From positions 1 to 39,227 of the forward strand of contig JAFLVH010000009.1 in NCBI GenBank assembly GCA_022508365.1: a stretch of 39,227 nt of DNA. The letters run 5' to 3'. The notes under the pieces are model-generated. The model did not search any database. It saw nothing but the letters and a program-made list of their open reading frames with translations, and had not been told where the DNA came from. Every line of letters starts with the position of its first letter. The stretch's first letter is position 1. Of the stretch, positions 7,361 to 39,227 are shown piece after piece. Origin of the DNA: Clostridiales bacterium. GTDB lineage: Bacteria > Bacillota > Clostridia > Christensenellales > Pumilibacteraceae. Position numbers and translations under genes: made by a program.

Positions 7361-7732
7361 ATGAAAGAAAAACATACCATTGTAGCAAATAGAATGAGAG
7401 AACTCCGCGAAGGTATTAAGCTATCCCAAGCAAAACTCGCAGCTCTTTTAGAAAACATCGAGCAGCCTGCAATCTTCCGCTATGAAAGCGGTCAATCCTT
7501 CCCACCTTACGGGGTGCTTATGCAGTATGCCGATTTCTTTGACATCTCGCTTGACTATCTTTTCGGCAGAACGGATAATCCGCAAGGCAAGTTATACAAC
7601 TTCCAGCCAAAAGTGTGGAAAAACCAAAGTCAAATGCAAGAGTTAATCGAAATGTGTTTCGATCCAAGCTCGCCGGCTAATGCGAAGTTAAAGGATTTGC
7701 TTTTACAGCTTATGGAGGAACAGAATAAATGA
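7361..7732 (+). CDS. XRE-family regulator linked to recombinase
   Basis: This 123-residue helix-turn-helix protein has its DNA-binding domain at residues 8-68 (RMRELREGIKLSQAKLA, AIFRYESG, ISLDYLFGRTDNP) and a short helical tail. The start ATG at 7361 has GAGGG nearby. Its last codons overlap the recombinase start by ATGA, so translation is coupled. Small XRE proteins placed directly before a serine recombinase usually control its expression in integrated elements, and I infer the same here. It is the first gene of a two-gene plus-strand unit set between minus-strand neighbours. Confidence 0.87.
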   Translation: MKEKHTIVANRMRELREGIKLSQAKLAALLENIEQPAIFRYESGQSFPPYGVLMQYADFFDISLDYLFGRTDNPQGKLYNFQPKVWKNQSQMQELIEMCFDPSSPANAKLKDLLLQLMEEQNK

Positions 7733-9249
7733 GAGCAGTAATTTACGCAAGATATAGTTCGGATAATCAAAGAGAAGAAAGTATTGAAGGTCAGCTTCGT
7801 GAATGTATGGAGTTTGCCGCCTATAACGACATTCAAGTTATGGGTAATTACATAGATAGGGCTTTATCTGCAAAGACCGATCACCGCCCCGAATTCCAGC
7901 GTATGATAAAGGACAGCTACAAACACGCTTTCGATTGTATCATTGTATGGAAGTTAGACCGGTTTTCGCGTAACCGTTACGACAGCGCACATTATAAAGC
8001 CCTACTCCGCAAAAACGGTGTTAAGGTTGTTTCGGCAAAGGAAACAATTGCCGAAGGCTCGGAAGGAATACTCCTTGAATCAGTCCTCGAAGGCATGGCG
8101 GAATACTATTCGGCCGAGCTTGCCGAAAAGGTTGTGCGCGGCATGACCGAAAATGCACTAAAAGGAATTAACAACGGCGGGCAAACTACTTTTGGGTACA
8201 AACTCAATGCGGAAAGAAGATTTGAGCCGCACGAAACATATGCCCCTATCCTTGTGGAAATATTTACCATGTATGCCGACGGCAAAACGGTAAAAAACAT
8301 CGTCGATTATCTGGACGAAAAGAAGATACTCTCCTATCGCGGTGGCAAAATCAACATAATGGCAGTTCAAAGAATGTTATCCAACCGTCGTTATTTGGGT
8401 GAGCTTAAATTCCGAGATATTGTAGTCCCGAACTGTATTCCCAGGCTTATATCTGATGAGCTATTCGAGAAGGTACAACGGCGTTTGGAAACCAATAAGA
8501 AAGCTCCGGCAAGGCACAAAGCGGATGAAGATTATTTGCTTACGCTAAAACTTTTCTGTGGCAAATGCAAAGCGCACATGATCGGCGAAAGCGGTATGGG
8601 CACTTCAAAGGTTTACCGTTACTACAAATGCGCTAACACAAAAAAGGTACATATCTGCGATAAGAAACCTGTGCGTAAAGAATGGATAGAAGATTTAGTA
8701 GTTAAAAACGCTATGGAAATTCTACAAAATGACGAGTTGTTGAATTATCTTGCTGAAACTGCTTTCAGATTGCAAGGTGAAGAAAATCCGAGAATACCCC
8801 ACCTGAAAGGACAGCTCGCCGACATTGAAAAGCGCATTGAAAATCTTATGGGCGCTATCGAGCAAGGCATCATCACCGACACTACCAAAGACAGACTAAA
8901 TCAGCTTGAAAAGAAAAAGAAGGAAATCGAGATAGCTATTTTGCAAGAACAAATCAAAAAGCCGTTCCTCACAAAAGACCAGATCCTATACGGTTTGGAG
9001 CAGTTCAGAGACCTCGACGTGAGCACGACAGAAGGAAAACAGCGGCTAATTGACGGGTTTGTTAACGCAATTTACCTGTATGACGATAGATTCGATATAA
9101 CACTAAACTTTAAAGGCGGAACAAAAACGGTGTACTTTTCAGAGATAGAGGCCGCCAAAAATTCGGGTTTTAAATCGCTCACTGTACCAAATAGAATGCC
9201 ACCGCTTAGTCGGTGGTTTTTTATTTGGTACACTCACAGGAGTGAGTAG
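7729..9249 (+). CDS. Large serine recombinase
   Basis: The 506-residue protein belongs to the large serine recombinases. It has a resolvase-type catalytic domain at the N-terminus with IYARYSS (nucleophile Ser10 likely) and VWKLDRFSRNRYD. A recombinase domain follows, then a zinc-ribbon-like segment near residues 281-310 with CGKC and later Cys residues, and a coiled-coil region (LEKKKKEIEIAIL). It catalyses integration, excision or inversion between short att sites. The last 25 or so residues (from LTVPNRM) look unlike the family, and their codons run through an intrinsic-terminator-like hairpin. The reading frame may therefore continue past its natural end into the element's right junction. 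Confidence 0.92.
   Translation: MRAVIYARYSSDNQREESIEGQLRECMEFAAYNDIQVMGNYIDRALSAKTDHRPEFQRMIKDSYKHAFDCIIVWKLDRFSRNRYDSAHYKALLRKNGVKVVSAKETIAEGSEGILLESVLEGMAEYYSAELAEKVVRGMTENALKGINNGGQTTFGYKLNAERRFEPHETYAPILVEIFTMYADGKTVKNIVDYLDEKKILSYRGGKINIMAVQRMLSNRRYLGELKFRDIVVPNCIPRLISDELFEKVQRRLETNKKAPARHKADEDYLLTLKLFCGKCKAHMIGESGMGTSKVYRYYKCANTKKVHICDKKPVRKEWIEDLVVKNAMEILQNDELLNYLAETAFRLQGEENPRIPHLKGQLADIEKRIENLMGAIEQGIITDTTKDRLNQLEKKKKEIEIAILQEQIKKPFLTKDQILYGLEQFRDLDVSTTEGKQRLIDGFVNAIYLYDDRFDITLNFKGGTKTVYFSEIEAAKNSGFKSLTVPNRMPPLSRWFFIWYTHRSE
9183..9232 (+). terminator. Composite hairpin inside the recombinase 3' end
   Basis: An inner stem CCACCG/CGGTGG (9199-9204 with 9211-9216) is followed by six Ts, as in an intrinsic terminator. 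An outer 11-base pair TGTACCAAATA/TATTTGGTACA (9183-9193 with 9222-9232) encloses it. It lies upstream of the recombinase stop codon. Confidence 0.6.
9232..9247. repeat. Perfect small palindrome at the recombinase stop
   Basis: ACTCAC and GTGAGT form a 6-bp stem around AGGA, directly abutting the previous hairpin and covering the recombinase stop region. Its function is unknown; it could be part of an att site. Confidence 0.4.
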
Positions 9250-26664: not shown

Positions 26665-28608
26665 TCAAATCTTTTCCAGCACTCGAACGGAATACGGCGT
26701 CATCTCGCAATAGCCGATAATTGTTTCGCCGCTTATTCTGTCCTTATATGCCCCGTCAAGTTGGATATATCCTTCGGCATTTTCAAGCTCTACGGCTATG
26801 ATTGCGGATTTCTCCCCGTCTATCCTTGACAGCGATACATTGTCGCTCGCCTCAAAAATCGGCTCGGCTTCCACCATGTTTTTGATGTCGCTATGCGTGG
26901 GCACGCTGCCGAGGATAACGACAACGCCCTTGCCTATGTACTTGCCGGCAACCACGGTTAAACCGTCAAATTCACCGCCCGCATACTTGGCAAGCGACAC
27001 CGAATTCTCGCCCACCTCATATGCGTCGAAGCACATGGACGCACCGAACGATTGCTTGTTGTCCGTCCACTCCGCGCGGAAAGCGTCGCTGTCAATAGGT
27101 CTTTGGTATTTTGTATACACCCCGACAAGCTCCTCCAAAAACGAGTGCGGCGCGTCGGTGTACTTTGTAACGTTTTCGTCCACTATATCCGACATAGGCC
27201 CGACTATCCAAGTGCCGCCGTTCTCCACAAACTTGACTATGCGCTCGTAAAAACCGTTCTCACGCGCGTGGCATAAAAACGGCGAAATGACCGTCTTGTA
27301 TCCGTCGAGCGAATGCTCCGTGTCGATAACGTCCACGTTGTAATGTCTGAGCGCCTTGTAAAACTTGTCGCGCACTGTAGCTGTGTAGTCAAAGTTCTTC
27401 AGCATAGGCGCCGCCATAAAGGTGTTAGCCGCAGTTGACGAATAGTGTAGAGCTATATCCGATTTTACACTGCCGCAAAGGATATCCTTGCAGCTTTCAA
27501 TCTCTCGTACGGCACGCGCCACCTCCTCGCTTACGCGGTACTGCCTGCCTGCAGTATTGTACAGCGCGCCGTGCGCCAGCTCATGTCCGTTCCTGTGCGC
27601 GCGGAACAGCCAGTACATATTCATATCCGCGCCGTGCGCAAACGGCAGCCACGTGTTAACATAGCAGTTGCCGACAGGTCGATAGCCGCAGTCTGCCACC
27701 GTGCTTCCGTTCCAGCCGACCTGCGTTTCCGTAACCCAAAAAGGTCTGTCCTTGACCGAGCGCAAAAAGTCGTACCAAAACTCCGTTTCGTACAGCTCGG
27801 CGGCGGTGTTGTAATGATTGAATTGCACCACGTCGAGCGAACGGTTGATATCGTAGTAGCTTAGATTGTTGTTAGCCATCATGTCGGTACCTATCGGCGC
27901 CCTTGTGTACTTATGCAATATTTCCGCCTGTTCCTCCACGTACGTGCGAATATTGTCGCACTGAAAATCCCACCACGCCTTAACAAGCGACGGGTGTTTC
28001 CACTGATCGGGAAGAGGCGGATTTACTGCGTCAAAGCTTTGATAGTCAAGCGACCAGCGCGCCATTCCCCACGCCGTGTTGAGCGCGTCGATTGTGCCGA
28101 ACTTGTGCTTTAAAAACTTTCGGAACTTGTCCACGCACAACGGACAAAAGCAGCCGTCGCCGTAAGGATACAGCTCGTTATCTATCTGCCAGCCGATTAT
28201 TCCGGGGTGCGATCCGAACGCCTTTGCCATCTCTGTGACGATTGCCCTGTTCTTTTCGCGCATAATGGGCGAAGTCTTGCAGGGATGACACCGCCAAGAA
28301 GTCTGCGACCTAACGCCTCTGTCGGACACATTGCGCATTTGCTCGTACTTATCCAACATATAGCGCGGCGGCGTGCACGTGGGCGTGCACATAACGGTAT
28401 GTATGCCTGCGGCATGAAGCTTATCCACAACGGAAATAAGCCAATCAAAATCAAACTCGCCTTCTTTGGGCTCCATTCTTCCCCAAGCAAATTCACCTAC
28501 GCGTAAAACGTTTAGTCCAAGCGCCTTGCACCGCTCTATGTCCTTGTCCACCTCTTTAGCGTCCCATAGCTCGGGATAGTACGCCGCGCCGATAAATAGT
28601 TTTTTCAT
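26665..28608 (-). CDS. ganA: GH42 beta-galactosidase
   Basis: The 647-residue enzyme is a full-length GH42. It has YYPELW at 10-15, the acid/base Glu145 in QIDNE, the nucleophile Glu294 in WVTETQVGWNG, and a Cys set C107, C153, C155, C158 matching the structural zinc site of the family. A trimerisation domain and a small beta domain follow. No signal peptide, so it acts in the cytoplasm, removing beta-linked galactose from imported galacto-oligosaccharides. AAAGGTGGAG precedes the ATG. It lies behind the galactan operon but starts from its own promoter. Confidence 0.95.
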   Translation of the reverse strand: MKKLFIGAAYYPELWDAKEVDKDIERCKALGLNVLRVGEFAWGRMEPKEGEFDFDWLISVVDKLHAAGIHTVMCTPTCTPPRYMLDKYEQMRNVSDRGVRSQTSWRCHPCKTSPIMREKNRAIVTEMAKAFGSHPGIIGWQIDNELYPYGDGCFCPLCVDKFRKFLKHKFGTIDALNTAWGMARWSLDYQSFDAVNPPLPDQWKHPSLVKAWWDFQCDNIRTYVEEQAEILHKYTRAPIGTDMMANNNLSYYDINRSLDVVQFNHYNTAAELYETEFWYDFLRSVKDRPFWVTETQVGWNGSTVADCGYRPVGNCYVNTWLPFAHGADMNMYWLFRAHRNGHELAHGALYNTAGRQYRVSEEVARAVREIESCKDILCGSVKSDIALHYSSTAANTFMAAPMLKNFDYTATVRDKFYKALRHYNVDVIDTEHSLDGYKTVISPFLCHARENGFYERIVKFVENGGTWIVGPMSDIVDENVTKYTDAPHSFLEELVGVYTKYQRPIDSDAFRAEWTDNKQSFGASMCFDAYEVGENSVSLAKYAGGEFDGLTVVAGKYIGKGVVVILGSVPTHSDIKNMVEAEPIFEASDNVSLSRIDGEKSAIIAVELENAEGYIQLDGAYKDRISGETIIGYCEMTPYSVRVLEKI

Positions 28609-28724: not shown

Positions 28725-31364
28725 TTAGTCATTGGAAGCCGACGATTTAAAGAAGAACTGTGCGTTGTCGATATTGCCCCAGCCGCCGTTTTCCGTCTTA
28801 TCCGTTTTGATGTGAATACCCACCTTGACGGACGCTACGGTGCTGTCTATTACAATCTCGTTAACAGCAGTTCTGTGCCATTGCTGCCAACCTGTAGCCT
28901 GAATATCGTCGCCGTGGAGTACAACCTCTTGTTTGCCGTCGTTATAGGTGATTATAGCAAACGAATAGATTTCCTGGTTATCGCCGCAGTCGCCGCCTGA
29001 GAAGTCGACGCTAAAGCTGAATGTGCCGTAGTTGTAATCCGCAATAGCTTTTGCAAGGTCTACCTCCTGATACAGCTCGAATTCAAGCGCGGCAGAATCC
29101 CAGAAGTGGAAGGAATTGGTTCCCATCTTGGCGTTTTGCGCCTCGTTGGAAACGTACAGCTGCAGCGCCTCAGGATTACTCGATATGCGATTTACCTTCC
29201 AGGGTGACGGAACGTCTATCTTATTGTCGGTCTGAGGATACCCGGCGGTGTCCTCAAAGCTGCCGTCGACAAGCAGGTTCTTGTTTTGCACATACACCGT
29301 GCATTTAGCGACTCCGCCGTAAATGGTTGTGCCGTAGACGACATAGTCTTTTACGGTGTGAATGTACTCTGCAACGTCGGAAAGATCCACATCCCACAAC
29401 GCGTCGGTCGAAACAGTAGAGTCGCTGTTGAGCACTACGGTAACCTTTTGCGGAAGGACCACGGTTTCTTCGTCAACGGTGTAGAACAATTCCGAATCGT
29501 AGATGTAATCGGCAGCCCAGTCTACAATCTGTCCGTCCTTAGCCAGCTTAAACAGCTTTAGCGACTCAAGCGCCTTAAAGTCTACAGAGCTGAAGAACGC
29601 CTGATTGTCAATTACAACGCCGCCCGCAGCTTTAACGTCGTTCTCTTGATAGCCGTCGCCGCCTATGGACGCGGGACCGGACTTAGCGGACGCCCAGCCG
29701 CAGCCGGTGGCGTTGCACTTTTCCATAGTGTCCGCGCGGTTGAGTGCGGGGGCAACCCAAGTGCCCTCCCAGTAGCACACTCCAAGCCCGTAATCGCCGA
29801 GCGAGGCGATGGCGTCTATAACGTCCAGAACCGCATTGGCCTGACCCTGAACGGTAAACGGCTTTGTCCTTGTGGAAAGCGCGGTGTTGCCCGTTTTGTC
29901 AAAGTCCTCGTCGGTAAAGGCATAAGAGGTTTCCAGCACCATTACCTGCTTGTTGGATATTTCGTGTACCCTCTTCAGCTTAGACGTAAGGTTATCCAGC
30001 GTGCCGTGCCAGAACGGATAGTACGACGATCCGAACACGTCGTAATCTACATTGTTGTTTTTGAAGGTAGTGGCATAACCGGCATAATCCCTGCTTTCGG
30101 GATTGGTAAGATGGATTGCCACCTTGGCTCCGCCGTTTGCCACCGTGCCGGTGACTTCTCTTACCGCCTTTGCGCCTTGGTTGATATAAGCGCAGTAAGT
30201 AGCGGGTGCGCTCGCGTAATCCGCTCCGCAAATAGCCCTGGTTGTCTCGTTGCCGATCTGCACCATGGTTATTTTTACGCCGGTGTTTTTAATCTTTTGC
30301 ATGCATTCCTTGGTAAACTCGTATATGGCGGTTTTACGCTCCTCCACAGACTTGTTTGCCCACGCCTTGGGCGCGGATTGCTTGCCGGGATCCGCCCAGA
30401 AGTCCGAATAATGGAAGTCTATTATCACGCCCAAATCGTACAGCTTGCAGCGCGTTGCTATTGCCACGGCGTTTTCAATGTCGCAGTTGCCGCCGCCGTA
30501 GCTGTAATTTACATCGCCGTAGTGACCCTCTTGATACGGATAATTCCAGACGCGAATGCGAATGTCGGTAATCCCGTTGTCATGAAGAATTTTATACACG
30601 TCCTCTTCTTCGCCGTCGAAGTTTTTATACACGACGCCGGCTTCCTCGAGCGACGGGACGGCGGAAGCATCCATACCCATGATAAAGTCGTCACGATCCT
30701 CGAGCGCGGATATCTTTCTGACGTACAGCGGATTAACTTCCGCATCTGCCGCCTCGCCCGCAACCTTGACAACGCAAGTCGCCTTTTCCCCGTTGTTTGC
30801 CGTGGCGGTGACAATGGCGTTGCCGCCAGCAATCGCCGTAACATTGCCGTCATTGTCGACCGACGCAACGGTGGGTTTGGAGCTTGCCCAAGTCAAGGTT
30901 TTGTCAGTAGCATTATCGGGCAAAACCGTAGCGGTTAGCTTGGCGGTTTTGTTTTCCTCAAGGTCTAGGTTTAAAACGCCTGTGTTTAGCTTGACGGAGG
31001 AAACTTGAACGGCGGCATTGCTCGGATCGATGACCGTGACCGTACAATTGGCGGATTTTCCGCCTGCGGAAGCCCTTACAATGGCCGTTCCTTCCTCAAT
31101 GCCTTTTACAGCGCCTTTGTCGCTGACGGTTGCAACTGACGTGTCGCTGGACTTCCAAGTGATCTTGGCAGTGCTTCCGAACGGCGTTATCGTGGCTTGC
31201 AACGTTGACGTGTCGCCGACGTTAATCATAAGCTTAGAAGGAAGGTCTATGCTTTTGACTTCTGTCGAGCCCGTGTCCTGTACGCCGGAACACGCCGCCA
31301 TAAAGACCATAACGAAGCTCAGCATAAAGCAAACTAAAATTTTAGACAATTTGTTAGATTTCAT
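28725..31364 (-). CDS. ganB: Surface lipoprotein GH53 endo-beta-1,4-galactanase, multidomain
   Basis: The 879-residue protein has a lipoprotein signal with Cys25 in FMAAC. Two Big2 Ig-like domains follow (about 36-112 and 120-202), then a GH53 catalytic domain (about 225-610) with acid/base Glu373 in QIGNE and nucleophile Glu478 in VLETSYAFT. A Big4-like segment (635-692) precedes a C-terminal region (about 696-878) resembling CBM61, which binds beta-1,4-galactan. It should sit on the outer face of the membrane and cut galactan side chains of pectin into oligosaccharides. Its ribosome binding site GAGGAG overlaps the MsmX stop codon, so it is co-translated with the importer. Confidence 0.94.
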   Translation of the reverse strand: MKSNKLSKILVCFMLSFVMVFMAACSGVQDTGSTEVKSIDLPSKLMINVGDTSTLQATITPFGSTAKITWKSSDTSVATVSDKGAVKGIEEGTAIVRASAGGKSANCTVTVIDPSNAAVQVSSVKLNTGVLNLDLEENKTAKLTATVLPDNATDKTLTWASSKPTVASVDNDGNVTAIAGGNAIVTATANNGEKATCVVKVAGEAADAEVNPLYVRKISALEDRDDFIMGMDASAVPSLEEAGVVYKNFDGEEEDVYKILHDNGITDIRIRVWNYPYQEGHYGDVNYSYGGGNCDIENAVAIATRCKLYDLGVIIDFHYSDFWADPGKQSAPKAWANKSVEERKTAIYEFTKECMQKIKNTGVKITMVQIGNETTRAICGADYASAPATYCAYINQGAKAVREVTGTVANGGAKVAIHLTNPESRDYAGYATTFKNNNVDYDVFGSSYYPFWHGTLDNLTSKLKRVHEISNKQVMVLETSYAFTDEDFDKTGNTALSTRTKPFTVQGQANAVLDVIDAIASLGDYGLGVCYWEGTWVAPALNRADTMEKCNATGCGWASAKSGPASIGGDGYQENDVKAAGGVVIDNQAFFSSVDFKALESLKLFKLAKDGQIVDWAADYIYDSELFYTVDEETVVLPQKVTVVLNSDSTVSTDALWDVDLSDVAEYIHTVKDYVVYGTTIYGGVAKCTVYVQNKNLLVDGSFEDTAGYPQTDNKIDVPSPWKVNRISSNPEALQLYVSNEAQNAKMGTNSFHFWDSAALEFELYQEVDLAKAIADYNYGTFSFSVDFSGGDCGDNQEIYSFAIITYNDGKQEVVLHGDDIQATGWQQWHRTAVNEIVIDSTVASVKVGIHIKTDKTENGGWGNIDNAQFFFKSSASND

Positions 31365-31367
31365 ATT

Positions 31368-32570
31368 TTACTCCTCGCTTTTTGTTTCGGGTGCGTCAAC
31401 CACGTCGTCCGAAGGCTGTTCTGCAGACTGAACGGTACCGTTGCCGTCCGTCAGTAGATTGTGCTCGGTTTCCGCATTGAAGAAGTGCATTACCTTGCTG
31501 CGGAATGTGATATAAATGCGCACTCCGGGGACAAGCGCCGCAAGCTGGTGCGGAGCAATATCCACTGTGGGAACGCGAATTACAATCTTCTCCTCGGTGC
31601 CCGTGACTACGTGGAGGTGCAGCTCGCTGCCCATCATCTCTTTTACGCGGATTTGGCAAGGTACCGCATACGGATTTTTGCTGTTGGACAGAGTGATATG
31701 CTCGGGACGAACGCCCAGCACAATATCCTGCGGCTGAACGTCTTTCGCTTTTAACGCCTCGCCCTTGTCTCCGCCTATCGGCATTCTCACGCCGAACGGA
31801 CTGACAAAGTACTCGTCACCATCTCTTTCAAGCTTAGTGCGCATAGTGTTCATCTTGGGCGCGCCGATGAATTCCGCGACAAACAGGTTGTCGGGCATTT
31901 CAAACACCTCGGTCGGAGATCCCACTTGCATGATAAAGCCGTCCTTCATAATGACTATGCGGTCGCCCAAGGTCATGGCCTCGGTCTGGTCGTGCGTGAC
32001 GTATATAAACGTAGTATTGATCTTTTTGCGGAGCAATATTATTTCCGCACGCATCTGATTGCGCAGCTTTGCGTCGAGGTTACTTAGCGGCTCGTCCATG
32101 AGGAAAACCTTACTGTCGCGTACCATCGCACGGCCGATAGCAACCCTCTGGCGCTGACCGCCGGAAAGCTCACGCGGACGCCTGGTCAAGTATTCGGTTA
32201 TGCCAAGCACTTCCGCCGCCTCGGTGACGCGCTTATAGATCTCATCGTTGGGCACCTTTTTAAGCCGCAGGGAGAACGCCATGTTCTCGAACACGGTAAG
32301 GTGCGGATACAGAGCGTAGTTTTGGAAAACCATCGCAATGCCGCGGTCCTTGGGCTGAAGGTCGTTTACCACCCTGCCGTCTATTTCCACTGTGCCTTCG
32401 CTGATATCCTCGAGACCGGCAATCATGCGGAGGGTTGTACTCTTTCCGCAACCGGACGGTCCGACAAAGACGATAAATTCCTTATCCGCTATGTCGAGGT
32501 TAAACTCCTGAACGGCAACGGTATTTTTGCCGTAGATCTTTTTTACATTGGTCAATTTGACTCTTGCCAT
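31368..32570 (-). CDS. msmX: MsmX/UgpC-type sugar ABC ATPase
   Basis: The 400-residue ATPase has Walker A GPSGCGKS at 37-44, LSGGQ at 135-139, Walker B VFLMDEP at 155-161 and the switch His in VTHDQTEAM. The C-terminal OB-type regulatory domain holds VLGVRPEHI. It powers import by the permeases encoded just before it. The last 26 or so residues are an acidic tail not needed by the family. ATG 32568-32570 is set by GGAG; the open frame upstream is ignored. In many relatives MsmX is a shared ATPase encoded elsewhere, but here it lies in the operon. Confidence 0.93.
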   Translation of the reverse strand: MARVKLTNVKKIYGKNTVAVQEFNLDIADKEFIVFVGPSGCGKSTTLRMIAGLEDISEGTVEIDGRVVNDLQPKDRGIAMVFQNYALYPHLTVFENMAFSLRLKKVPNDEIYKRVTEAAEVLGITEYLTRRPRELSGGQRQRVAIGRAMVRDSKVFLMDEPLSNLDAKLRNQMRAEIILLRKKINTTFIYVTHDQTEAMTLGDRIVIMKDGFIMQVGSPTEVFEMPDNLFVAEFIGAPKMNTMRTKLERDGDEYFVSPFGVRMPIGGDKGEALKAKDVQPQDIVLGVRPEHITLSNSKNPYAVPCQIRVKEMMGSELHLHVVTGTEEKIVIRVPTVDIAPHQLAALVPGVRIYITFRSKVMHFFNAETEHNLLTDGNGTVQSAEQPSDDVVDAPETKSEE

Positions 32571-32580
32571 AATAAACTCC

Positions 32581-33633
32581 TTATCCCTTAACGGCGCCGC
32601 CCGTAACACCGGCGACATAGTATTTTTGCAGGAACATAAACAGCAGCGTAATGGGCAACGCCACTACCACACCGCCTGCACAGAATGTGGTGTAATACCT
32701 ATCCACACGCGTCTCTCCGACGAGCCACTGCAAACCCGTTGCAACGTTAAAGCCGAGCGGATCGTTGTTGGACATGAACCTTGCGGTAATAAAGTCGCCC
32801 CACGGCGCCATAAAGCCCATAAGAATGGTGTAGATGATTATCGGCTTGCTCATGGGAATGATTATCTTATAGAAAATCTGGAACTTGCTAGCTCCGTCCA
32901 CCATTGCCGCCTCGTCCAGCGAATGGGAAATGGTGTCAAAAAAGCCTTTGCACACATAATAGCCCATGCCCGAGCTTGCCACATACAAAATGGCAAGGCC
33001 GTAAGGCGCTTTGGACCCTGTAAGGCCCCAGCCAGACAAAAGCGTGTAAAGCAGAATGAGCGTCAAAAATCCGGGGAACATGCCCAAGACGAGCATTGCG
33101 TTCATGAGTAGTTTTCTGCCCTTAAACCTGTTTCGGGAAAGCGCGTAGCTCATCGCCAAGATAAACAGCGTCTGCACTACCGCGCAGAAAAGCCCCAATA
33201 AAAAGGTGCTTAAAAACCATTTACCGAACTCCGTTTCCTTAAACAGTCTTATGTAGTTGTCGAAGCCCCATTTGTGCGGAATAATATATCCGGCAAGACC
33301 TGTTGATTCCACACGGAAGGATTCAAAAACTATAAAGATAAAGGGTAAAATCCACAGAATGGACATCAACGCCAAAACAACGTGAATTATGGTGTTGCTT
33401 ATAGCGCGCTTTGTAGTCTGCGACATGTGCGTCTTGTTTTCCGCGGCCTGCTCCTTGGCGGACTGAACGTGCTGAATTTGCGAAGCTTCCTGCTCGCTTA
33501 AAAACTGCTGCACTCCGCTTTCGTCAAGCTCTATGCTTTCATACTCCGCGCTGTGGGAATCGATATCCATGTCAAACTCGACAACGCCCTCTGTTTCTTC
33601 AAAATATTCAACTTGTTTGATGCTGTCTTTCAC
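32581..33633 (-). CDS. ganQ: Galacto-oligosaccharide ABC permease, MalG type
   Basis: The 350-residue permease has six membrane segments in residues 75-345 and the cytoplasmic EAA loop SLDEAAMVDGASKFQIFYKIIIP, here read as EAA-x3-G. That loop docks onto the ATPase. It resembles GanQ/MalG. Unusually, about 75 acidic and Gln-rich residues precede the first membrane span (EEQASQIQ-like stretch). The usual length is about 280 residues. Its ATG overlaps the stop of the upstream permease by 4 bases, and the ATPase follows after 10 bases. Confidence 0.93.
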   Translation of the reverse strand: MKDSIKQVEYFEETEGVVEFDMDIDSHSAEYESIELDESGVQQFLSEQEASQIQHVQSAKEQAAENKTHMSQTTKRAISNTIIHVVLALMSILWILPFIFIVFESFRVESTGLAGYIIPHKWGFDNYIRLFKETEFGKWFLSTFLLGLFCAVVQTLFILAMSYALSRNRFKGRKLLMNAMLVLGMFPGFLTLILLYTLLSGWGLTGSKAPYGLAILYVASSGMGYYVCKGFFDTISHSLDEAAMVDGASKFQIFYKIIIPMSKPIIIYTILMGFMAPWGDFITARFMSNNDPLGFNVATGLQWLVGETRVDRYYTTFCAGGVVVALPITLLFMFLQKYYVAGVTGGAVKG

Positions 33634-35165
33634 GAGAAATCATCCTCCCTTTTAGTCGCAGGCATAATGCTGAACACAACAAGCGAAAGCACCGATACCA
33701 CTATAAAGATAAGAATACCTATGACGGACGCCATCTTGTAGTTGGCTTCGTTGCCGGTGGTTATGCCGAAAAGCCAGGTGATAAGAATGGTGGTGTCGCC
33801 GGCTACGTAACCGCCTACGTCGCCCCAAACGTAATTGTTAGGTCCGCCCTGCGTCAACAGATAAATGACGTTGAAGTTGTTTATATTGCTGACAAAGCTT
33901 GTCAAAAGGTACGGGCCTGTTACAAACAGCATATACGGCAGTGTGATCTTTGCAAACTGCTGGAATGCGTTTGCCCCGTCTATTCGCGCCGACTCGTAAA
34001 GGTCTGCAGGAATGTTCATCAGTATGCCCGTGGTGATGAGCATAAGGTACGGAATACCCACCCAAACATTGATGACAAGCACCATTATTTTAGCAAGCGT
34101 GCCGTCGCCCCAGAACCTTATCGGACTGTCTATCCAACCCCACTTCATCAGCGTGGCATTTACAATTCCGTTGGTGGAAAAAAGATTGGATATGTACAGC
34201 AGCGATATAAACTGCGGCACGGCTATCGTCATAACAAGAACTGTGCGCCAGAACTTTTTGATCTTTATGCCCTTTTTGTTGATCATTATGGCGACGAACA
34301 TTCCGAGGAAGTAGCAGCTGAACGTTGCGAAAAACGCCCAAATCAGCGTCCAAGCGAGAATCTCGCCAAATGCCACCTGCAATCCCGATCCAAACGATAT
34401 GACGGAATTAAAGTTGTCAAAGCCGACCCAGCTGAACAGATTGGTGTAACCGTTGTGGTTTTTGTCGTAGTTGGTGAACGCTACCAAAATCATAAAGATT
34501 ATGGGCAGCACCGTAAACATGGTTATGCCGAATACGGGAAGCGCGAGCAAAGTCTTGTGGAAATCGTTGTCCAGAAGGGACTTTATATCCTCGCCGGATG
34601 TCTTAATCTTTTTTCCATTGCGAGTAATCTCGTCGCACAGCTTGCACTGTTTTACGTTAAGACGCCAGGTGTAGATTAGCGCGACAATAAAGAATATCGT
34701 CAGCAGTCCGTACAGCAATATCTTAAACGAGTTGTCGCCGGCTACGGTAACTTCCACATACTCACCGGGCAGAAGCGGACTTTCCACAAGCTGTTTGCCC
34801 GACTGAACGGTGCCGAGCGTGCCGAACTTACTAAGCCAGTAGCCGCCCGCAAGCACCATGTACAAAATGAATACAACCTCAAGTATAAGGAACACTGCGC
34901 CTCTTAGCCATTGCTTATGGAAGAAGCTGCCGAAGCCCATCACAAGAAATGACACGCGCGTGGACCAGCTTCCGTTTTTAAACGTGTACCAAATATCTCT
35001 AAACGTGTCGGCGGTCTTTAGCCCGAAGTTTTTAAAGAACCTTCCGATTTTTTTGCCCTTGTCGACAAACCAACCGGGAATGGCGCAGAAAAAGCACTTG
35101 AGCTTGTAGATAAATTTTTGCCACCGCGTAAGTTTGAGATAATCAAGAGAATTCAAATAAGTCAT
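33630..35165 (-). CDS. ganP: Galacto-oligosaccharide ABC permease, MalF type
   Basis: The 511-residue protein resembles GanP/MalF-type permeases. A cytoplasmic N-terminus of about 70 residues leads into membrane segments, a soluble loop near 110-150, and the transport core (about 210-505). The core carries the EAA loop SARIDGANAFQQFAKITLP. It forms the membrane channel with the MalG-type partner encoded behind it (4-base overlap). GGAG lies before ATG 35163-35165, and the solute-binding gene is 36 bases upstream. Together they import galactan fragments. Confidence 0.92.
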   Translation of the reverse strand: MTYLNSLDYLKLTRWQKFIYKLKCFFCAIPGWFVDKGKKIGRFFKNFGLKTADTFRDIWYTFKNGSWSTRVSFLVMGFGSFFHKQWLRGAVFLILEVVFILYMVLAGGYWLSKFGTLGTVQSGKQLVESPLLPGEYVEVTVAGDNSFKILLYGLLTIFFIVALIYTWRLNVKQCKLCDEITRNGKKIKTSGEDIKSLLDNDFHKTLLALPVFGITMFTVLPIIFMILVAFTNYDKNHNGYTNLFSWVGFDNFNSVISFGSGLQVAFGEILAWTLIWAFFATFSCYFLGMFVAIMINKKGIKIKKFWRTVLVMTIAVPQFISLLYISNLFSTNGIVNATLMKWGWIDSPIRFWGDGTLAKIMVLVINVWVGIPYLMLITTGILMNIPADLYESARIDGANAFQQFAKITLPYMLFVTGPYLLTSFVSNINNFNVIYLLTQGGPNNYVWGDVGGYVAGDTTILITWLFGITTGNEANYKMASVIGILIFIVVSVLSLVVFSIMPATKREDDFS

Positions 35166-35201: not shown

Positions 35202-36497
35202 CTATTTATCAAGCAGTGAACGCAATCCGTCAGCATAATCGGAAAGCGCCTTTTGCAAAGCCTGCAAGTCGCCTGTTGCGGCGTCTTTTACGCTGCCGGA
35301 TAAAACCTTAACCTTGTTCCACCAGTCTGCGGGATACTGTCCTTGCGGTACAGTGGCGGTCTCCTTTAATGCGGAGAGCGCGACGTCGGCTTTTACTGTG
35401 GCGTTATTCTGACCGGACTTAGTGGACGGTCCCCAACCGAAGCTGTTGTAGCGCGCCATCTGACTGTCCTCGTTGGTAAGATATTGGGCAAGCAGTGTAA
35501 GCGCCGCCGCCTTATTTGCGTCACCCTCCTGCGGAGAAACACCCAAAAGCTTGCAGCCCAAGAACGATTTAAGCTGATGTTCCGTTTCGTCTACGGTGTA
35601 TGTGGGAAGCTTGGCAACGCCGAGGTTATTGCCCAAAGCGTTCTTAGCCGCCTTGTAATCCCAAATGCCGCTTACAACTGCGGCTGCAGGGCTGGCGGCG
35701 TTAAAATCGGACGCCTTGCCCGTGTCCTTGGTGTCGTCGTCCAGATAGCTTTTGTGTTTTAACACCTTTTGCAATCCTTGTGCGGCAATCAATCCCTTAT
35801 CGGAATTGAAAGTGTCATTTTCTCCCGGGAGTGTTGTAAATTTGCCTTGGTCGGTCACTGCCCAATCGGATTTGGCGCCCGCCCCGTAGAAGAAGGACGA
35901 CACGTACCAGCCGCCTTTTAAATCAAAGCTGAAGTAACGTTTTTCACCCGGATGCGAGCTTTCGTATTCCGAGCAGGCGTCGAGAATACCCTCGACAGAT
36001 CCCGCCTGTTCGTCAGAAATGACGCGCTTATCGTAATAGAGGAAGTAACCGTTGTCCTCGGTAAGCGGATAGGCATATACGGTGCTGCCGACAGTTGCCG
36101 CATTCATAGCCGTTGCGGTGTTAATCTCGGTCAAGCTGTCAACAACAGATTGAGCCGGCGGAGCAAGAAGCCTTGAGTTGACAAGCCTTGCTATTTGGTC
36201 CTGCGCAAAGCAGAAAATTTCCGGCGCGTCCTCGGGCTTGTTGGTTACGTCGCCCGCCGCCTTGCTCTCCGTTACCTCGTTGACCTTGGCGTAAAACCAA
36301 ATGCTTTGACCGTTGGACTTGTTGAAATCCGTGATAAGCTTTTGGGTAAGCGTCTTGGTGTCCTCGCCCACCCAAACGGTTATGTTGTACCTGTACTTGG
36401 CGTTTTTGCCCTCGTCCTCTTCGCCGCAACCGACAAGCGCCGCCGTGGTGCCTGTAATCATGACTGCGCCGAGCAGCGCTGCAATAATTTTTTTCAT
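35202..36497 (-). CDS. ganS: Galacto-oligosaccharide-binding lipoprotein
   Basis: The 431-residue protein is an extracellular MalE-like binding protein (CUT1/family 1 SBP). It has Lys-Lys, a hydrophobic run and the lipobox LVGC with Cys24, followed by an acidic linker. Strand NITVWVGEDTKTLTQKLITDF and NDTFNSDKG-like sugar-binding parts fit the family, as does TATVPQGQYPADWW near the end. It should capture galacto-oligosaccharides for the permeases encoded next. AAAGGAG lies upstream of ATG 36495-36497. Specificity for galactan products is inferred from the GH53 and GH42 neighbours. Confidence 0.91.
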   Translation of the reverse strand: MKKIIAALLGAVMITGTTAALVGCGEEDEGKNAKYRYNITVWVGEDTKTLTQKLITDFNKSNGQSIWFYAKVNEVTESKAAGDVTNKPEDAPEIFCFAQDQIARLVNSRLLAPPAQSVVDSLTEINTATAMNAATVGSTVYAYPLTEDNGYFLYYDKRVISDEQAGSVEGILDACSEYESSHPGEKRYFSFDLKGGWYVSSFFYGAGAKSDWAVTDQGKFTTLPGENDTFNSDKGLIAAQGLQKVLKHKSYLDDDTKDTGKASDFNAASPAAAVVSGIWDYKAAKNALGNNLGVAKLPTYTVDETEHQLKSFLGCKLLGVSPQEGDANKAAALTLLAQYLTNEDSQMARYNSFGWGPSTKSGQNNATVKADVALSALKETATVPQGQYPADWWNKVKVLSGSVKDAATGDLQALQKALSDYADGLRSLLDK

Positions 36498-36545: not shown

Positions 36546-36559
36546 TTAACACCTGTTAA
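36546..36559. promoter_or_regulatory. Palindrome between GH53 and the binding-protein gene
   Basis: TTAACA-CC-TGTTAA overlaps the stop codon of the cytoplasmic galactanase and lies 49 bases before the binding-protein gene. It could be an operator for a local repressor, but no such regulator gene is visible in the window. Confidence 0.3.
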
Positions 36560-37656
36560 ATTTTAAACTCATCAAATGCTGGGAGCTTTTTCCCTTCGTA
36601 ATCGAATAAGCATTGGTTTGCCCATTCGTTGCGCGTGGACTTTATTTCCGTTGCGCCGGTGTAGCGCTGTGCTTCTTCCGACGACCAGCATATGCCCTCG
36701 CCGGGGATCCACAGCGGCTCCCACCAAAACACAGCCTCCACGCCGTGGCTTATTGCCAGCGGCAAAAGGTCCCTTACAAACTTTGCTTGACCCTCGGGCG
36801 TCAGCGGATAGTCCTTTACAAAGCCCAGCCCGTCCACCACGGAGGCGTCAATCACAAGATGCGCACCGCCGTGAGCGTTCTTTATGTAGTCCTCCAGAGT
36901 AAAGCCGTAGCCCACTTCCACAATCATAAGCCGTTTGCCGAACTTTTTGCAGTTGTCTATATTTGCGAAAAACTGCTCGAAAGTGCCGTGCCAGTACGGA
37001 TAGTATGAGAATCCGATAATATCGTAATCGATATCGGTCATCTGTCCGAAGAACTCGTTGTAAAGGTCCTGATCGTAGCTGCGCTCAAGATGCAACACAA
37101 GCGCCGCGGAAGGCTTAACCTCGCGACACGCCTTAACTCCGGCGTTGATTAGCCTTTTTAGGCTGTCGTAATTGGAACGAGGCTTAACGTCCTCGTCGAG
37201 CTTGCCGACAGGCCAAAGCATGCCGTTGGTAATTTCGTTGCCCACCTGAATGAACTTTATGTCAATTCCGTTTTGCTCGGCGGTAGCAAGAATGGATTTT
37301 GTGTATTCGTACACCTTTTTTTCAAGCCCGACTAAGTCGAGACCGAACCACGCCTTGGGAATTGTCTGTTTGCCCGGGTCGCACCAAAAATCGGAATAAT
37401 GAATGTCGAGCATTACTGAGTACCCCTTTTCTTGAGCGAGCGTTGCCAAACGAATAAAGTTTTTTAGGTCGCAAGTGCCGCCGAGATAGGGATTGCCGTC
37501 TTTGTCGTACGGATCCACCCAAACTCGAATGCGCATATACTCCACGCCGTTAGCGCGGAGCATGTCCAGCGGCTGCACCTCGTTTTTTCCGTCGTAGTAC
37601 GTGGCGCCGCGATCGATCTCCTCAAAATATGTAGATACGTCTATGCCGAGTTTCAT
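36556..37656 (-). CDS. Cytoplasmic GH53 endo-beta-1,4-galactanase
   Basis: The 366-residue enzyme consists of the GH53 catalytic barrel only: GIDVSTYFEE at 4-13, HYSDFWCDPGKQ at 86-97, acid/base Glu141 in QVGNE, and nucleophile Glu247 in MIVEVGYGF. The Asp-rich loop and WEPLW near the end also fit. There is no signal peptide, so it should cut imported longer galacto-oligosaccharides inside the cell. GGGGAG precedes the ATG. It lies 4 bases after the small Cys-rich gene and before the binding-protein gene, in the same operon. Confidence 0.93.
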   Translation of the reverse strand: MKLGIDVSTYFEEIDRGATYYDGKNEVQPLDMLRANGVEYMRIRVWVDPYDKDGNPYLGGTCDLKNFIRLATLAQEKGYSVMLDIHYSDFWCDPGKQTIPKAWFGLDLVGLEKKVYEYTKSILATAEQNGIDIKFIQVGNEITNGMLWPVGKLDEDVKPRSNYDSLKRLINAGVKACREVKPSAALVLHLERSYDQDLYNEFFGQMTDIDYDIIGFSYYPYWHGTFEQFFANIDNCKKFGKRLMIVEVGYGFTLEDYIKNAHGGAHLVIDASVVDGLGFVKDYPLTPEGQAKFVRDLLPLAISHGVEAVFWWEPLWIPGEGICWSSEEAQRYTGATEIKSTRNEWANQCLFDYEGKKLPAFDEFKI

Positions 37657-37660
37657 ACTA

Positions 37661-37921
37661 CTATTGCTCCCCGCGCTTATGCATTACGAAAGTGGGCGGA
37701 ACGTTGTCCTCGCCAAAGTCTGCTACGCGCATTTTCAGCCTGCCGTAACGGTAGCGCGCCATTTCGTTTAGCGCCACAACCTGCTTTTCGTCGCCGTGAA
37801 AGCAGCAGCGCAGGCAGTAATATTCCTTTTTTTCGCTGTCGTAGAACATGTCTACGTCTATATCGCGCATAAAGCAGGACGGACAACGAAAGTTCAGTTT
37901 GCCTTTTGAAGATTGAGCCAT
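37661..37921 (-). CDS. Small Cys-rich zinc-ribbon-like protein
   Basis: The 86-residue protein has two CxxC pairs, C13-C16 (CPSC) and C36-C39 (CLRC), followed by a further Cys and a His (CFHGDEK), arranged like a zinc ribbon. The C-terminal half is basic and Arg/Tyr-rich (MARYRYGRLKMR). It is not a family I recognise. A perfect AAAGGAGG lies 8 bases before its ATG, inside the end of the upstream gene, which it overlaps by 28 bases; translation is therefore coupled. Its place inside a sugar-use operon suggests a helper or regulator of the neighbouring enzymes, but this is only inferred. Confidence 0.65.
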   Translation of the reverse strand: MAQSSKGKLNFRCPSCFMRDIDVDMFYDSEKKEYYCLRCCFHGDEKQVVALNEMARYRYGRLKMRVADFGEDNVPPTFVMHKRGEQ

Positions 37922-39227
37922 GTCGTGACGCCTCCTTTATTCAAAGTCTTTTTGACGCTTATGTGATAGACCGGCGAGAATGCGATACCCTCTTGCACAG
38001 AAAGCTCGTCAACGTCGCCGCCCATCTCCACGCGCGTCATTACGTCGGGTATCTCGACGTAAGCAACAAGAGGATTCTTCCCTTGTTTGGAGGAAATGCT
38101 TCTGCCGAGATACCCATACTGCATTTTTTCTTCTCCTACGCCGAGCGTCAGCTTGGTCATATCCGCTTGATACTCGGTGGTGCCGAACGCGCCGGTAAAA
38201 TACTCCTCAATAGTAACCTGTTCGCCGCAAGGCAAGTCGGACAATATCTCTCTGGTTGTCACCACCCTTCCGGACTTTTCAAACACAAATGTTGAACGAA
38301 TGACTATATCCGTGCCGCTTAAATGTACGGTCACGGGATTTGCGGTAAGCTTGACGCCGCTCTCCGTCCTTTCAAACGAAGCCATTGTGCGGCACAGGCA
38401 AAGGTCGGCGCTTTCGCCTTTGTAGGTTACTTTGCAGGACTTGATTGTACCTGCGCCGGCGTAATGCGTAAAATAGCCCGCCCTGTAATTTATTTGTATA
38501 AGGTACGGATAGGACGCGTCGTACACGTTGTCCGTGCCGATACCCGTCTTTTGCGGTATACGCGCTACGTACGGTCTTAGGTCGACCATTGCTCCGCCTT
38601 GGTTAAAGTCCAAGCAAAGCCGCTTTGTGGGGTCCGCAAACCAAAAATACTGCTTGTCGCTGCCGTAAAGGATGTCCTTCCACAGCGCACACTCCGCCGT
38701 CTTATAATCGGGATGACATTCGCGGTAGAAGTCGGCAAACTCCGCCATGGTTAGGTCGAGAAGCTTACCCTGCTTTTTAAGATTGCCGTAATACTTCATG
38801 CCGTCCTCGTAGGACTTTTTAAGCAGCTCGTAAGGCGCTTCCCACCTTCCGGCTTTGTTGAGCCAGCCGGGTCCTACAAACATCATGTTGTAGGAATAGC
38901 CGTTGTTGTACTTTTCCAAATGCCGATACTGGTCTATAAGGTTGTACAGGTACGGATATTCGATAGACCCGTTGTCATCGTAATAGATCATGCCGCGCAA
39001 CACGTTTTGCGGATGAGTGCCGAAGTTGCTGCCGTTGCCGTCAAAACACGCCATAAGGTCGCGCGACAGATGCGGAATTGCAACAATGCCGCTGTCGTCG
39101 GCTTCGTCGGAAGCGGGACAGTGCGAATTTTTCTTTGACGGAATCCAGGGATTCCAGGGGCCGCCGTCCATAAAGGTGTACCAGCTGTTGTTGCAGGTGT
39201 GGTACGCCTTGGGACCTTCTTCCCAAC
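37894..39227 (-). CDS. Unrecognised large protein of the galactan locus, N-terminus outside window
   Basis: The frame is open from the window edge (39225) to the stop at 37894-37896, giving at least 443 residues, so the start lies outside. I cannot place it in a known family. The first visible third is rich in aromatic residues, Asp and His (YHTCNNSWYTFMDGG, IPHLSRDLMACFDGNGSNFGTHP, MMFVGPGWLNKAGRWE), as in a carbohydrate-active barrel. The rest is a beta-rich region (TIKSCKVTYKGESADLCLC, VIRSTFVFEKSGRVVTTREIL) as in the beta-sandwich half of some glycoside hydrolases. No signal peptide can be judged. It heads the visible operon and precedes the small Cys-rich gene. Confidence 0.6.
   Translation of the reverse strand, partial: WEEGPKAYHTCNNSWYTFMDGGPWNPWIPSKKNSHCPASDEADDSGIVAIPHLSRDLMACFDGNGSNFGTHPQNVLRGMIYYDDNGSIEYPYLYNLIDQYRHLEKYNNGYSYNMMFVGPGWLNKAGRWEAPYELLKKSYEDGMKYYGNLKKQGKLLDLTMAEFADFYRECHPDYKTAECALWKDILYGSDKQYFWFADPTKRLCLDFNQGGAMVDLRPYVARIPQKTGIGTDNVYDASYPYLIQINYRAGYFTHYAGAGTIKSCKVTYKGESADLCLCRTMASFERTESGVKLTANPVTVHLSGTDIVIRSTFVFEKSGRVVTTREILSDLPCGEQVTIEEYFTGAFGTTEYQADMTKLTLGVGEEKMQYGYLGRSISSKQGKNPLVAYVEIPDVMTRVEMGGDVDELSVQEGIAFSPVYHISVKKTLNKGGVTTWLNLQKAN

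Follow-up and report, generated by a model that had tools for sequence, protein, structure and literature searches.

A conserved gene pair beside galactan-utilisation genes may encode a two-subunit carbohydrate-active enzyme

The stretch of DNA analysed here, which we call the window, comprises 39,227 nucleotides and is the entire contig C81 of its genome. At one end lies a large gene (BIG) that runs into the contig edge; behind it follow, on the same strand, the gene of a small protein (sm) and a series of sugar import and breakdown genes (Table 1). As the window is a whole contig, BIG is truncated by the assembly, and a full-length profile search found no N-terminal piece of it elsewhere in the same genome. 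A sequence-only reading of the window had proposed that BIG and sm open a galactan operon. The import and breakdown genes do lie downstream as it described; BIG, however, is probably not the first gene. In L004, a close relative (89% identical), a gene encoding a 1169-residue protein with Big_2 domains directly precedes BIG, ending at position 7500, with 17 bases separating it from the start of BIG at 7518. The arrangement follows the import and breakdown logic of the Bacillus-type gan operon (GH53, GH42 and an ABC importer), to which the window adds BIG, sm and a GH53 that is predicted to be cytoplasmic. Further away, the plus strand carries a 506-residue open reading frame (7729-9249) that resembles, as named by eye, a large serine recombinase. 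It stands amid mostly reverse-strand genes and could be a mobile-element insertion.

Table 1. Genes of the BIG-sm locus in the window, with the basis of each assignment.
Feature	Position	Strand	Basis
BIG (large protein), C-terminal 443 of about 603 residues, predicted barrel and GalM-like sandwich	37894..39227	-	ORF 37894-39225; open at edge
sm (small zinc-ribbon-like partner), 86 aa, CPxC...CxxC	37661..37921	-	ORF, conserved Cys
GH53 endo-galactanase-type, without signal peptide, directly downstream of sm	36556..37656	-	Pfam PF07745 E 1.3e-89
ABC transporter sugar-binding protein (SBP_bac_8)	35202..36497	-	Pfam E 2.2e-21
ABC sugar permease-like protein	33630..35165	-	assigned by reading its sequence
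ABC sugar permease-like protein	32581..33633	-	assigned by reading its sequence
ABC transporter ATPase (MsmX-like)	31368..32618	-	sequence motifs
Secreted lipoprotein GH53 with Big_2 domains	28725..31364	-	Pfam PF07745 E 1.8e-101
GH42 beta-galactosidase-type enzyme	26665..28608	-	PF02449 E 3.5e-94 at 27493-28581 (genome search)

Relatives of BIG were collected by scanning about 85,000 species genomes; this yielded 352 stretches, and the analysis went on with the best 80. Among these 80, complete relatives are about 600 residues long, so the window copy is missing about 160 N-terminal residues. Neither the window copy nor the full-length relatives matched any entry in Pfam, NCBIfam or the PDB sequences, and we therefore dropped the idea that BIG belongs to a known family. 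This bears out the earlier impression that the protein fits no described family, and no match to a non-carbohydrate family turned up among the Pfam and NCBIfam models either. A literature search found nothing on the BIG-sm pair.

Sampling of 391 genomes from the class, and of 74 from the family, added further groups. The window copy belongs to a clade, M, whose members among the best 80 of the 352 stretches are 59-90% identical to it. A more divergent clade, D, shows 32-36% identity to the L004 protein, and a distant group, X, has members of about 500 residues and up with 16-20% identity. A quick tree recovers M as a monophyletic group (support 0.73) nested within D, while X sits on a long branch. 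The scanned X members L088 and L112 match no Pfam family above the cut-off, and the X members L125-L133 lack sm and, at the position of strand 7, carry GQEN as an invariant motif. A sample of 398 genomes from the whole phylum contained no relative beyond the window's own copy. Anaeroplasma bactoclasticum ATCC 27112 (L032), a strain available in culture, also has the pair. One relative (G834:C43:325-962; L105, L116) contains several stop codons and is apparently a pseudogene.

The coupling of the two genes is unusually exact. In the window, sm starts within the last codons of BIG, with an overlap of 28 bases; AAAGGAGG stands a few bases upstream of the sm ATG, and the reading frame of sm is closed by a TAA shortly before the gene. 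The overlap is exactly 28 nucleotides, stop codon included, in 80/80 M copies, and 78 of them have a ribosome-binding site ahead of sm (best 80 of 352 stretches). In the D clade the length of the overlap varies and its frame is constant. A profile of sm, run against the 391 class genomes, found 17 strong copies, each adjoining one of the 17 full-length M or D copies of BIG; G541 has two of each, and genomes of this sample with an X-type BIG alone gave no strong copy. Thus sm is an obligate companion of BIG in the M and D clades, and the description of sm as a coupled and dedicated partner in the sequence-only reading is confirmed. Its conservation, the exact overlap and the presence of one copy per BIG rule out a chance open reading frame. 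A frameshift fusion of the two genes is less likely in view of the ribosome-binding sites and the TAA that closes the sm frame.

The structure of BIG was predicted with AlphaFold for the 603-residue L004 protein with 25 aligned homologues (pLDDT 82, pTM 0.85). In the model, the segment from residue 1 to about 335 is a (beta/alpha)7 barrel like those of GH57 enzymes and polysaccharide deacetylases, and residues 337-603 form a beta-sandwich like that of galactose mutarotase (GalM). The top match among solved folds is 3lm3 (Z 30.1 over 380 aligned residues), which is BDI_3119 of Parabacteroides distasonis, a putative glycoside hydrolase/deacetylase with the same overall fold; our literature search found nothing on its function. 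The alignment is confined to model residues 1-484, identity is 17%, and 3lm3 has a serine in place of D140. Sequence homology between 3lm3 and the BIG superfamily is significant though remote: it includes the YPS...PA motif and D217, and a superfamily profile that includes more distant BIG members reaches 3lm3 by sequence only (E 7.7e-7). The barrel also matches the deacetylase-fold structures 3qbu (Z 20.0) and 3rxz (Z 18.9) and the GH57 amylopullulanases (Z 17-18), and the C-terminal 260 residues have the sandwich fold of GalM/aldose 1-epimerases (Z 15-17). The predicted domain architecture is that of a carbohydrate-active enzyme, in support of the earlier suggestion of a beta-sandwich-like second part with the look of such enzymes.

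The nearest structural families resemble BIG in fold but differ from it in other respects. Members of GH57 (the 4-alpha-glucanotransferase 1k1x and the amylopullulanases 9jlq/9ihu) share the (beta/alpha)7 barrel, and 1k1x also has a C-terminal beta-sandwich, but identity to BIG is about 10% and Pfam gives no GH57 match. GH57 enzymes have a catalytic Glu at strand 4 and an Asp, their acid/base, at the end of strand 7. In the model of the L004 protein, no carboxylate lies on strand 7 (271-278) or from its end to W282, and D140 follows strand 4. BIG also has an obligate zinc-ribbon-like partner. GH38 alpha-mannosidases have a barrel of seven strands followed at the C-terminus by a GalM-like domain; neither the N- and C-terminal GH38 models nor any Pfam deacetylase model matches the full-length relatives of BIG at E values up to 10. 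Mutarotases carry their catalytic His pair and Glu in the sandwich. A known mutarotase is rejected, as no histidine in residues 337-603 is invariant across the M and D clades; Pfam gives no match. Although its predicted fold is of the GH57/GH38/NodB kind, BIG did not show the further features by which these families are defined, as far as they could be compared, and we have not filed it in any of them.

The deacetylase-fold structures among the top barrel matches do raise the question of whether BIG is a carbohydrate esterase or deacetylase, which would use a NodB-like barrel and a bound metal to deacetylate imported pectic oligosaccharides. Acetylation is possible on pectic side chains, and a NodB-like barrel is common to BIG and CE4. 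We nonetheless consider this quite unlikely. Besides the missing Pfam deacetylase match, the Asp-His-His motif with HxxxH that marks CE4/NodB enzymes is absent: the invariant histidines of BIG (11, 46, 170, 213, 232 and 415) contain no HxxxH pair. Moreover, a GalM-like sandwich at the C-terminus is characteristic of hydrolases of the GH38/GH57 type but not of CE4.

Conservation is strongest in the barrel, which holds 162 of the 209 invariant columns. The barrel residues common to M and D are H11, R12, E80, C161, E163, E164, H213, R216, D217, H232 and R238; the two clades also have several sandwich residues in common. E80, D140, C161, D217 and the P190/P198-A199 motif are kept as far as the X group. 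D140 is missing from one divergent copy, L124, which makes any choice of catalytic residues uncertain. The most conserved segments (160-183, 226-239 and 408-418) are among the worst modelled; 45 of the 61 low-confidence residues are invariant, compared with 209 of all 603 (P 5e-11). Such conserved but poorly modelled loops are as expected if a ligand, metal or partner is needed to order them, and sm would be the natural candidate.

The four cysteines of sm (C13, C16, C36 and C39), forming two CxxC knuckles, are invariant in an alignment of 19 members, which suggests that the protein binds zinc. Its closest sequence matches, all weak, are to the zinc ribbons found in transcription factors, TFIIE among them; the best E value against PDB zinc ribbons is 0.046, and the best against Pfam, for one member, is 0.0025 to the DnaG ribbon. 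A fold search with a model of sm gave no significant match. The transcription-factor resemblance, together with the coupled and constantly paired genes, would suit a sensor or regulator: BIG, as a degenerate enzyme, would bind a galacto-oligosaccharide, and contact with nucleic acid or RNA polymerase would be made by the zinc ribbon. However, every zinc-ribbon match of sm is weak, the concentration of invariant BIG columns in the barrel fits an active site, and some of the loci already contain LacI or AraC regulators. We regard such a sensor as very improbable. The constant pairing is also what would be seen if sm and BIG form a complex, as we infer.

The link between BIG and GH53 is conserved in the M clade. 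Among the best 80 of the 352 stretches, GH53 follows directly behind sm in 63/79 M loci, and 77/79 have it somewhere in the fetched stretch. The SBP_bac_8 binding protein is kept in 60/79 M loci, homologues of the two permeases in 65/79 (33630..35165) and 64/79 (32581..33633), and homologues of the window ATPase (31368..32618) occur in 54 loci. Of the 391 class genomes, 50 contain GH53, including 9/9 with an M-type BIG (hypergeometric P 4.7e-9); counted by genus, the figure is 7/7 (P 5e-7). In the window's family, the same 5/74 genomes have both BIG and GH53. The conserved GH53 linkage that the sequence-only reading named as support is therefore seen in the M clade, and the lack of linkage to GH53/GH42 loci that would have refuted that reading is not. 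The two M-clade pairs without GH53 within 8 kb, L073 and L077 (2/79 loci), are surrounded by TatD, two-component, permease and ABC genes, and no sugar genes were recognised beside them.

The galactan setting does not extend to the whole family. While the M clade tracks GH53, all seven D genomes fall outside the set with GH53. One D copy adjoins GH31, GH78 and GH42 (L117), and others a melibiase-like gene (L120), a raffinose-synthase/GH36-like gene (L124) or PL8 (L118). As the D clade keeps the pair without GH53, the BIG-sm module is not restricted to galactan. Conversely, BIG is absent from 41/50 GH53 genomes in the 391-genome sample, which signifies that it is not required for galactan use as such. 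Genes for a GalE-like epimerase and a galactokinase flank some M loci. From these neighbours, a galactosyl substrate is our best guess; nothing points to the arabinosylated or rhamnose-linked galactan ends proposed earlier.

In two genomes (L039 and L056; G855 and G859), BIG and GH53 are present, but searches for GH42, GH2 and GH35 gave no match. Among the families searched, the last step of galactan breakdown has no candidate there, although both are metagenome-assembled genomes and may be incomplete. They hint weakly at BIG as the sole beta-galactosidase, an idea we rejected because most genomes carry GH2 or GH42; in the window itself, the GH42 of the same operon would make an exo-beta-galactosidase role partly redundant. 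The same two genomes leave the final cleavage to another enzyme and can be read in favour of a non-hydrolytic sugar enzyme of this fold that acts on galactose, such as a phosphorylase or an isomerase, as can the presumed cytoplasmic location, the nearby Leloir genes and the GalM-like domain. We find this unlikely. The possible incompleteness of the two genomes and the limits of the search (GH42, GH2 and GH35) weaken the argument, the GalM-like half has no histidine invariant across the M and D clades, which makes mutarotase chemistry improbable, and we know of no phosphorylase with this barrel.

Taken together, we favour, with a probability of about 0.6, the reading that BIG and sm together make up a single carbohydrate-active enzyme of two subunits, located in the cytoplasm. 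BIG would be the catalytic subunit, with its active site in the mouth of the barrel as in its GH57, GH38 and NodB relatives and the GalM-like sandwich packed behind; sm would be a zinc-ribbon subunit that probably orders the conserved active-site loops. Translation of sm from within the last codons of BIG would ensure that both are made in step. Judging from the absence of signal peptides, the pair is placed in the cytoplasm. In this scheme, the lipoprotein GH53 would cleave galactan outside the cell, the ABC transporter would import the products, and the cytoplasmic GH53, BIG-sm and GH42 would degrade the oligosaccharides to galactose, with BIG-sm most likely acting on their galactosyl linkages. 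Both catalysis and substrate are proposed here from fold and gene context.

If this reading of the pair is true, a sugar-processing family tied to the use of pectic galactan by rumen and gut bacteria is missing from Pfam, NCBIfam and the PDB sequences. A more specific version, in which BIG-sm is a new glycoside hydrolase family of GH57/GH38-like fold, with an active site completed by a co-translated zinc-ribbon subunit, for galactosyl linkages in many gut bacteria, we put forward only tentatively and hold to be somewhat doubtful. Should sm complete the active site, BIG expressed alone would miss activity, which could explain why the family has stayed unnamed.

Two other features of the relatives' loci were seen. 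A 164-residue protein with no Pfam match (L042:10647-11141) is encoded between GH53 genes in five Bacilli/Erysipelotrichaceae loci. In many relatives, the galactan genes are surrounded by genes for a GH13 alpha-amylase that is secreted, a pullulanase-like protein and a GH77 (for example L007:1409-3007, L007:11032-13920 and L011:6007-7521, the first type being present in 43 loci), an arrangement that looks like a combined locus for starch and galactan use.
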